Below, in pieces: positions 1 to 16,974 of a stretch of 34,607 bases of DNA. Numbering within the stretch: position 1 is the stretch's first letter; the number at the start of each line of letters is the position of its first letter. Below the pieces are notes generated by a model that was not told where the DNA came from, ran no database searches, and worked only from the letters and a program-made list of their open reading frames with translations. The translations under genes were made by a program, and so were the position numbers. Source of the DNA: Acidimicrobiia bacterium (GTDB taxonomy: Bacteria > Actinomycetota > Acidimicrobiia > IMCC26256 > PALSA-610); NCBI GenBank assembly GCA_017882905.1, contig JADGOO010000099.1, positions 1 through 34,607 of the forward strand. Direction: 5' to 3'.

Positions 1-1
1 A

Positions 2-217
2 CCGGCGCCTGAGCGCAGCGAGATTCATCGGGCACCTGAGCGCAGCGAGATTCATCGGGCACCTGAGCGCAGCGAGATTCATCGGGCACCTGAGCGCAGC
101 GAGATTCATCGGGCACCTGAGCGCAGCGAGATTCACCGGGCACCTGAGCGCAGCGAGATTCACCGGGCACCTGAGCGCAGCGAGCGCACCGGAGGAACGC
201 GGCGGGCGCGGCGGTAG
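2..217 (+). CDS. Possible C-terminal repeat tail of an upstream gene (partial)
   Basis: The frame beginning at position 2 is open from the left edge to a TAG at 215-217. Across the tandem repeat it reads as the nonapeptide APERSEIHR repeated about six times, then a short basic tail ending GGTRRARRR. No start codon is visible, so this would be the 3' end of a gene outside the window. In many actinobacteria the gene before hemQ is a heme-pathway gene such as hemG/cgoX or hemE, but nothing here identifies the upstream gene. A second forward frame across the array is also free of stops within the repeat, so openness alone is weak evidence. The repeat may simply be intergenic. Confidence 0.3.
   Translation, partial: PAPERSEIHRAPERSEIHRAPERSEIHRAPERSEIHRAPERSEIHRAPERSEIHRAPERSERTGGTRRARR
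5..184 (+). repeat. 27-bp tandem repeat, six full copies plus a partial seventh
   Basis: The core CCTGAGCGCAGCGAG recurs with a strict 27-bp period, starting at 8, 35, 62, 89, 116, 143 and 170. Copies 1-4 continue with ATTCATCGG. Copies 5 and 6 share a T-to-C change (ATTCACCGG). Copy 7 diverges after the core and runs into the hemQ promoter. Copy 1 has GCG where the others have GCA. The array begins at or beyond the left edge of the window, so its true length is unknown. The absence of unique spacers rules out a CRISPR array. Because 27 is a multiple of three, each reading frame repeats as nine codons. Confidence 0.97.
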
Positions 218-220
218 CCT
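215..220 (+). promoter_or_regulatory. -10 box for leaderless hemQ transcript
   Basis: TAGCCT lies six bases before the GTG at 227, and no Shine-Dalgarno sequence sits in the usual place. This is the spacing expected if transcription starts at the first base of the start codon. The TAG is also the stop codon of the frame running through the tandem repeat. Confidence 0.55.
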
Positions 221-226
221 CGACCC

Positions 227-1012
227 GTGCCCGTGACACCGTCAGTCGGCTGGGGTGTGCTGCATCTCTACTATCGCCTCGATCGGGCGCGCGCCGACGC
301 GAATCCCGCTTCCGCGAAGCGTCTCGTGGCGGCGGTGGAGGCGTTGCGGGCCGACGGGCATCAAGCGCTCACGTTCAGCGTGCTGGGTCACAAGGCCGAT
401 CTCGGCGTGATGGTGCTCGGGCCTGATCTCGGCCGGCTGCAACGCTTCCAAGCCGAGGTGCTCGACGGTCCGTTCGAGCCGGTGTGGTCGTACGTGTCGC
501 TCACCGAAGCGTCGCCCTACACCTCGACCGACGACGACGAACGCGCCCGCCTCGCCACCGAAGAGGGCATCGACGATGCCGCCGAGATCGAGCGGCGACT
601 CGCGGTCTGGCGTGACCGGATGGTGCACTATCGCGAGCAACGACTGCACCCGCAGCTGCCCGCCAAGCAGCTGCTCTGCTTCTATCCGATGACGAAGCGC
701 CGCAACGCCGACGCGAACTGGTACGCGCTCGATTTCGAGCAGCGCAAGCGGCTCATGGCGGGCCATGCGCGCGTCGGGCGCACGTACGCCGGGCGTGTGG
801 TGCAGCTCATCACGGGATCGACCGGCATCGACGATTGGGAGTGGGGCGTGACGTTGCTCGCCGACGATCCGTTGGTGCTCAAGGAGATCGTCCACGAGAT
901 GCGCTTCGACGAGGTCTCGGCCCGCTACAGCGAGTTCGGTCCGTTCTATGTGGGTCTCGTCGGCGAGGCCGATGAGGTGCTCGCGTCGCTCACGTCGGGA
1001 GGTGACCAATGA
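227..1012 (+). CDS. hemQ: Coproheme decarboxylase HemQ/ChdC (chlorite dismutase family)
   Basis: This 261-residue protein matches the chlorite dismutase-like fold of HemQ/ChdC, which removes two propionates from coproheme III with peroxide to give heme b in the coproporphyrin-dependent pathway of monoderm bacteria. The C-terminal half carries the family blocks: FYPMTKRR (152-159, with Tyr153 aligning with the reactive tyrosine of the family), RLMAGHARVGRTYAG with His180 as the likely proximal heme ligand, DDWEWGVTL (202-210) and HEMRFDEVSARYSEFG (223-238). The GTG at 227 is favoured because TAGCCT lies six bases upstream; GTG 233 is the alternative. Its stop overlaps the next start (ATGA at 1009-1012), so the NIL-domain gene is translationally coupled. 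A heme-independent dismutase is unlikely given the ChdC-type motifs. Confidence 0.93.
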   Translation: MPVTPSVGWGVLHLYYRLDRARADANPASAKRLVAAVEALRADGHQALTFSVLGHKADLGVMVLGPDLGRLQRFQAEVLDGPFEPVWSYVSLTEASPYTSTDDDERARLATEEGIDDAAEIERRLAVWRDRMVHYREQRLHPQLPAKQLLCFYPMTKRRNADANWYALDFEQRKRLMAGHARVGRTYAGRVVQLITGSTGIDDWEWGVTLLADDPLVLKEIVHEMRFDEVSARYSEFGPFYVGLVGEADEVLASLTSGGDQ

Positions 1013-1254
1013 GCTCGCCCCAGCGGTTGTTCGTGTCGTTCCCCGAGCAGCTCGTGCCGCGCCCGATGGTCTACGAGCTCGTGAAGCGCTTCGATGTGAT
1101 CCCGAACATTCGGCGCGCCGATGTGGAAGACCACTCCGGCTGGATGATCCTCGAGCTCGGCGGTCAGCCCGCGTCGTGCGAAGCGGCGATCAACTGGTTG
1201 CGCGAGCAGGGTTGCGTCGTCGACGACATGCAGGGTGACATCATCGCCGGCTGA
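1009..1254 (+). CDS. NIL-domain protein
   Basis: An 81-residue protein made almost entirely of a NIL domain, the small ferredoxin-like fold found at the C-terminus of MetN methionine transporter ATPases and in some ferredoxins. Visible features are an N-terminal strand RLFVSFPEQLV, a helix around residues 18-27, the central GWMILELGG strand pair (44-52) and a C-terminal helix AAINWLREQGC followed by VVDDM. Free-standing NIL genes occur in several actinobacteria, but the ligand and role are not settled. Its start overlaps the hemQ stop by four bases, so it is co-translated with hemQ, and a role linked to heme, iron or sulfur metabolism is inferred from that alone. Confidence 0.8.
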   Translation: MSSPQRLFVSFPEQLVPRPMVYELVKRFDVIPNIRRADVEDHSGWMILELGGQPASCEAAINWLREQGCVVDDMQGDIIAG

Positions 1255-15912: not shown

Positions 15913-16974
15913 CTACGCGTCGGGGCCCTCGCCCTGGCGGCGCAAGAACTCCTCGATGTCGGCCGCGAGCGTCTCGGCCGACGGTAGATCCGACTCGTCG
16001 ATCGGTGGTGCGTCGCTGGCTGGGGGTGTGTCGTCGACGGGTGCCGCCGGGCGATCGCCGGATTTGTCGTCAAGTGGGGCGCGGCGACGACCGGGCAGCT
16101 CCTCGTCGTCTTCTTCGTCGTCGTCGTCCCAGTCGTCTTCGTTGTCCCAGCTGGGGTCGTCGTCCCAGTCGTCGTCGAAAGCGATCACGTCGTCGTCGGG
16201 CTCGTCGTCGAGCAGCTCGAGGTCGTCGCTCGTTCCCGAGTCGTAGCGCGCTTCGAGCGAGTGCACGTAGTGCACGAGATCCTCGTCGTCTTCTGCGACC
16301 GAGTCGACCTGCTGCTCCCAGGCGCGCGCGGCCACGGCGAGCCCACCAGTGTCGAGCTCGAGCTCGAGAAGCTCGCCGAGACGTTCGAGCAGCGCGAGCG
16401 TCGCTTTCGGGTTCGGCGCGCTGGCGACATAGTGCGGTACCGGTGCCCACAGCGACAGCGACGTGAAACCGGCCATTCGGGCTTGATCGGCGAGCACGCC
16501 CACGATGCCGGTAGGACCTTCGTAGCGCGAACGTTGCAGCCCGAGGCGCGCGGCGGTGCGCGGATCACTTGCCGTTCCCGTGACCACGACGGGCCGCGTG
16601 TGGGGCACGTCGCCGAGCAGTGCACCGAGCGTTACGGCGCGGTGCACGCCGTGATCGCGCGCCGTGCGCAGGATCTCGGCGCAGTACGCGGGCCAGTGCA
16701 AGTTCGGCTCGATGCCCAGCGCGAGGATCACCGTGCGGCCGTTCGGCTCGGCGCGATGGATGCGTGTGGTGGGCCAACGCAGGTGCCGTACCACGCCCTC
16801 GACGATCTCGACCTGTGGCCGAGCGGCCTGGAAGTCGAAGTAGGCCTCGCTGTCGAGCGCGTGCACCTCGGTCGCATCGAGCGTGCGGATGAGATAGCGC
16901 ACCGCGTCGCTCGCCGCGTTGGCCGCATCGTTCCAGCCCTCGAAGGCGGCGATGAGCACAGCCCCGTCGGTCAC
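15913..16974 (-). CDS. PAC2-family protein with long acidic tail
   Basis: A roughly 353-residue protein. The N-terminal 240 residues are a PAC2 domain (opening DGAVLIAAFEGWNDAANAAS, then VVVTGTASDP and APVPHYVASAPNPKA), related to archaeal and eukaryotic proteasome-assembly chaperones and common in actinobacteria. A roughly 60-residue segment follows that is extremely rich in Asp and Glu (DDDVIAFDDDWDDDP, DDWDDDDEEDDEELPG), then a Pro/Asp linker and a C-terminal amphipathic helix (SAETLAADIEEFLRRQ). The GTG at 16974 is chosen because TAGTGT lies seven bases upstream and the PAC2 domain starts at once; GTG 16983 (with AGGA) and GTG 17013 are alternatives. A link to the actinobacterial proteasome is family inference; no proteasome gene is present here. 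Confidence 0.87.
   Translation of the reverse strand: MTDGAVLIAAFEGWNDAANAASDAVRYLIRTLDATEVHALDSEAYFDFQAARPQVEIVEGVVRHLRWPTTRIHRAEPNGRTVILALGIEPNLHWPAYCAEILRTARDHGVHRAVTLGALLGDVPHTRPVVVTGTASDPRTAARLGLQRSRYEGPTGIVGVLADQARMAGFTSLSLWAPVPHYVASAPNPKATLALLERLGELLELELDTGGLAVAARAWEQQVDSVAEDDEDLVHYVHSLEARYDSGTSDDLELLDDEPDDDVIAFDDDWDDDPSWDNEDDWDDDDEEDDEELPGRRRAPLDDKSGDRPAAPVDDTPPASDAPPIDESDLPSAETLAADIEEFLRRQGEGPDA

Follow-up and report, generated by a model that had tools for sequence, protein, structure and literature searches.

A 27-bp tandem repeat upstream of hemQ in an Acidimicrobiia bacterium is probably a non-coding expansion from the stop codon of the preceding gene

This locus raises the question of whether a short tandem repeat that keeps a reading frame open directly before a heme gene encodes the end of a protein or is an intergenic expansion. 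The window analyzed here, 34,607 nucleotides in length, is the entire contig C241 of genome G000 (259 contigs) and begins 9 bp before the first copy of the repeat core. When copy structure, codon statistics, and comparison with other loci are combined, the array is quite probably a non-coding intergenic repeat that starts from the stop codon of the upstream gene, probably the TGA at 10-12, and has been duplicated in tandem up to the hemQ promoter. The features of the region are as follows.

1-12, forward strand: probable 3' end of the upstream gene, ACC GGC GCC TGA (stop at 10-12)
10-184, forward strand: tandem array of seven TGAGCGCAGCGAG cores in 27-bp steps with the locus-specific spacer ATTCAYCGGGCACC, delimited by TRF and core registration
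185-214, forward strand: unique stretch between array and promoter box, starting CGCACCGGAGGAACGCGG
215-220, forward strand: -10-like box TAGCCT of hemQ, conserved in relatives, its first three bases being the stop of the nonapeptide frame
227-1012, forward strand: hemQ (Chlor_dismutase family, PF06778, E 2e-51), GTG start 6 bp 3' of the box, stop at 1010-1012
1009-1254, forward strand: NIL-domain protein (PF09383, E 1.3e-14), overlapping the hemQ stop by ATGA

TRF places a 27-bp array at 4-184 of the window, with 6.7 copies, 98% match, and a score of 341. The core occurs seven times, starting at 10, 37, 64, 91, 118, 145, and 172 with each step equal to 27 bp, a copy number that is the assembler's output only, because the contig breaks off at the array. 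Both results agree with the sequence-only reading, which had described seven copies at an exact 27-bp period. The motif GAGCGNAGCGA is found 8 times in the window, compared with 0.42 on average across 100 shuffles. Copies 2-4 are identical, copies 5 and 6 have one C in common (CAT to CAC), copy 1 has one mismatch inside the unit and further differences leftward, and in copy 7 the unit is lost 3' of the core, with 7/27 mismatches. Given the contig start so close to the first core, the number of repeats or their junction with hemQ could be an assembly artefact, with the contig ending inside the repeat. However, the differences among copies are ordered, both end copies have distinct flanks, the conserved hemQ box is present in the sequence to the right, and similar arrays are found internal to contig C100 of the same genome and in a different genus (G005); an artefact is accordingly regarded as very improbable. 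Contig C20 of G000 (L254 1-140) also carries a repeat at its start, a coding-looking 27-bp unit reading EVTTTTTVP x5; contig breaks in this assembly can fall at tandem repeats.

It had been noted from the letters alone that a frame is held open as APERSEIHR repeats to the TAG at 215-217, and this is correct: frame 2 of the forward strand has no stop between 2 and 214 and is closed by that TAG. On this basis the array could be the C-terminal (APERSEIHR)n tail of the upstream gene's product, as the frame is open across all copies and the period of 27 is divisible by three. Against this, frame 3 is also open in the array, leaving only frame 1 with a TGA in each unit, and among random 27-bp arrays of matching base composition, 99.7% have one or more open forward frames and 93% have two or more. 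Two open forward frames of three are thus expected for most such arrays, and the open frame is weak evidence for coding. Codon usage is also poor: for the one 9-codon APERSEIHR unit on which these statistics are based, GC3 is 5/9, with 4.5% of 9-codon windows from the 20 genes called in the window being as low or lower, and the codon log-odds fall within the lowest 1.9% of such windows. A low-complexity tail may depart from usual codons, and the repeat in C20 demonstrates that G000 does have a coding-looking 27-bp repeat elsewhere. A Pfam search of the array frame matched no family.

The match to PF06778 confirms the downstream heme gene as hemQ, which was matched in 51 of the 61 genomes searched, own genome counted, and the array, placed right before a heme gene in the non-coding alternative of the sequence-only reading, does end 5' of a conserved -10-like box, about 30 bp from it. 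A TANNNT box, mostly TAGCCT, lies 4-10 bp before an in-frame hemQ start in 15 of the 19 relatives, compared with 2.3% for shuffled upstream sequence; two of the four misses (L109 and L121) do have a TAGCCT or TACCCT, but their start falls outside the range set in the script, on the upstream side. The TAG at 215-217 forms the first half of this conserved hemQ box, so that the stop codon of the proposed tail is promoter sequence.

Additional insight is gained from the same core elsewhere in G000, where CTGAGCGNAGCGA has 13 matches against 2 for a control: seven in the array, two in C100 (plus variants), two in C166, and one each in C55 and C242. The C100 units, at spacings of 27, 26, and 27, come after the stop of a diacylglycerol kinase gene; those of C166, at a spacing of 26, come after that of a small gene whose GvpG match is sub-threshold; and in C55 the core follows a prephenate dehydratase stop, with a partial copy 25 bp on. 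At all three of these sites (3/3) the gene's stop codon is supplied by the TGA of the core, which was the case for 0/5 scattered single TGAGCGNAGCGAR matches in the same genome. With spacings of 25-27 bp, any reading frame is lost at these loci. The nonapeptide reading is therefore rejected, on indirect grounds: a variable nonapeptide tail on the upstream protein, as had been suggested, does not sit well with the poor codon statistics, a TAG within the promoter box, and a core that follows stop codons elsewhere. The array is very probably not protein-coding, and a coding tail is considered improbable.

These other loci have in common with the array only the 13-bp core, the spacer being different, and descent from a single source is consequently unproven. 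TRF analysis of 20 further G000 stretches (229,567 bases) revealed no other GAGCGCAGCGA array. Within that sample and the window, 2 of the 12 arrays that are not wholly within called genes begin at a stop codon, and these consist of other units. They are tandem arrays of 14 bp in C70 (L262 4179-4230) and 12 bp in C110 (L265 9511-9548), both beginning at the stop of a called gene.

The assignment of TGA 10-12 as the stop of the upstream gene draws on three observations. The sequence to the left of copy 1 does not match the unit; a lipoprotein gene at L009 ends in ..GCC TGA and the DNA before hemQ at L123 reads GCGCCTGAGCG; and at other places in G000, as described above, this core comes after stop codons. 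The upstream gene is absent from the G000 assembly, and the stop at 10-12 is for this reason a prediction. A lipoprotein gene and groEL lie 5' of hemQ in several relatives, while others have other genes there, and the one hemQ-adjacent lipoprotein tested belongs to LppX_LprAFG (PF07161, E 1.8e-6). Neither search gave a counterpart of this upstream gene in G000 by synteny: the sole GroEL match is a fragment truncated by the end of contig C73, and a profile of four hemQ-adjacent lipoproteins matched only a different-looking gene on C210, which has a TAG stop 23 bp from the contig end. The groEL fragment on C73 is preceded (L246, about 260-350) by an inverted repeat, TTAGCACTC..GAGTGCTAA, which resembles the CIRCE element.

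It can be hypothesized that the array arose from a single TGAGCGCAGCGAG core located just 3' of the stop codon of the upstream gene. Slippage during replication, or unequal recombination, would then have duplicated the 27 bp around this core (GGCRCC, the core, and about 8 bp) in head-to-tail orientation, and further rounds of duplication would have kept the units alike. The distance from stop to box minus six units is 43 bp, and the stretch may thereby have grown from about 43 bp to 205 bp. In genome G001 (L274), a single GAGCGCAGCGAG core is followed by a stretch similar to window positions 185-214. The T-to-C change reported for copies 5 and 6 (CAT/CAC) is real on alignment of the copies, and the stepwise duplication from one end that was read from it remains plausible, with the direction probably reversed. 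Copies 5 and 6 share CACCGG, offset by 1 nt, with the unique sequence to the right of copy 7, and C is for this reason more likely the older state and T a change carried by copies 1-4.

As to function, the likeliest role of the array is none, meaning passive expansion that is tolerated outside the gene and the promoter core. Its position directly 5' of the promoter box, with a core identical in all seven copies, would also suit a regulatory role, in which the repeated cores act as binding sites, serve as a spacer controlling the transcription of hemQ, or shield the gene from read-through. Yet the GAGCGNAGCGA core occurs in 0/32 loci of relatives that reach 5' of hemQ (upstream DNA of about 0.6 to 6.4 kb), the same core follows unrelated genes and in C100 and C166 lies between convergent genes, and no RNA structure is apparent. 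The RNA of 1-226 folds worse than 200/200 shuffles, giving no indication that an RNA structure is under selection, and an RNA element was rejected as a candidate. A regulatory role is in our view improbable; an effect of the array on transcription into hemQ is possible. Mobility was likewise considered. The Y1 transposase family PF01797, which we take to be the RAYT type, has no match in G000 and is absent from 15 of the 16 genomes tested, including 7 of the 8 with arrays, and RAYT/REP mobility of the array was therefore discarded. Positions 1-226 had no match in 72,556 plasmid records, and a 22-bp piece of the array had no exact match in viral contigs.

Beyond G000, a DNA search of 61 genomes with positions 1-214 identified two arrays in G005 (its contigs C72 and C73), which is of the same family and another genus. 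Each has about 7 units of 27 bp, and the flanks are similar. With left and right flanks alike (L271 and L275), the two constitute a dispersed element of roughly 300 bp. Four further matches (E 2e-4 to 9e-4) are short; three are without an array, and the fourth is the single core of G001. Pairs of GAGCGNAGCGA cores 22-30 bp apart were matched 184 times in the class (31 of 395 genomes), compared with 4 times in 3 genomes for the reversed control, and 111 times in the phylum (20 of 396 genomes), compared with 4 times in 4, these being overlapping samples with totals summed over tables. Such pairs account for 20 matches in G005 and 9 in G000, of which 6 are in the hemQ array, which thus itself has two or more such cores 22-30 bp apart. 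Single cores prove little, since in some genomes of the phylum the reversed control is equally high (61 core matches versus 59 for the control in G199). Among 28 clusters in 25 loci, by crude gene calls, 23 lie between called genes, 3 inside, and 2 are undetermined. A preference for convergent pairs was considered and dropped, with 6 convergent, 11 co-directional, and 6 divergent placements next to the 3 in genes and 2 undetermined, and no bias is claimed. An array of 32-bp units in G052 (C9, L320 1441-1579) runs from a TAG stop between two convergent called genes.

The spacers are lineage specific, with AACAAGAGCGGG in genus g50, CGAGAGCGGGA in G005, and others elsewhere, and different lineages have only a core of 11-13 bp in common, which is too short for a tree of cores to be feasible. 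We infer that the core in G000 belongs, by common descent, with the scattered GAGCGNAGCGA-cored repeats of other Acidimicrobiia and Actinomycetota, each with its own spacers. More tentatively, and as a possibility we hold to be less likely than its negation, GAGCGNAGCGA could mark the core of a phylum-wide, hitherto undescribed class of short intergenic repeats, able to spread and to grow into arrays of 22-30 bp units without a RAYT, with lineage-specific spacers that are alike within arrays and, in some genomes, a start at stop codons; the hemQ array would then be one local member. No description of this core was found in the openly licensed full texts searched. The kind itself, a short intergenic repeat with tandem expansion, is already known.

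Comparison with known repeats places the array near two such groups. In being short, intergenic, scattered, and patchy among genomes, with shared cores and differing flanks, it is similar to REP/REPIN sequences. It differs from them in having no palindromic hairpin signal, as its poor fold relative to all shuffles indicates, and in the near absence of the Y1 transposase from the genomes tested.

MIRU are short repeats between actinobacterial genes, with a small open frame. The G000 array has these properties in common with MIRU, for which PMC12548453 describes insertion at the start codon and a frame coupled at -4 nt. In contrast, the G000 array appears to start at a stop codon, and its frame ends at 217 with hemQ starting at 227, which leaves a 9-bp gap and no overlap. 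A dispersed repeat, GTCATTCTGAGCGNAGCGAAGAATCT, found in G140, G289, and partly G039, contains the same CTGAGCGNAGCGA core; it differs in its other, longer conserved flanks, and as the frame before its TGA is mostly short (3 to 66 codons), there is no sign of placement at stop codons. This repeat and another, GTCATTGCGAGCCTGAGCGAAGCGAAGGCGTGGCAATC, are dispersed across G140, G289, G311, and G039 (L226-L245).

These observations suggest caution in two respects: a tidy repeated open frame beside a gene can be an ordinary intergenic repeat expansion, and the stop codon of such a frame can be promoter sequence. The hemQ array is of modest interest, and it is the wider repeat class that merits a second look. 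If that class is real, it would consist of easily searched short repeats whose arrays could act as strain markers. Within the window, TRF also detects an imperfect 18-bp repeat, TCGTCGTCGTCGTCCCAG, present in 3.5 copies at 16115-16177.
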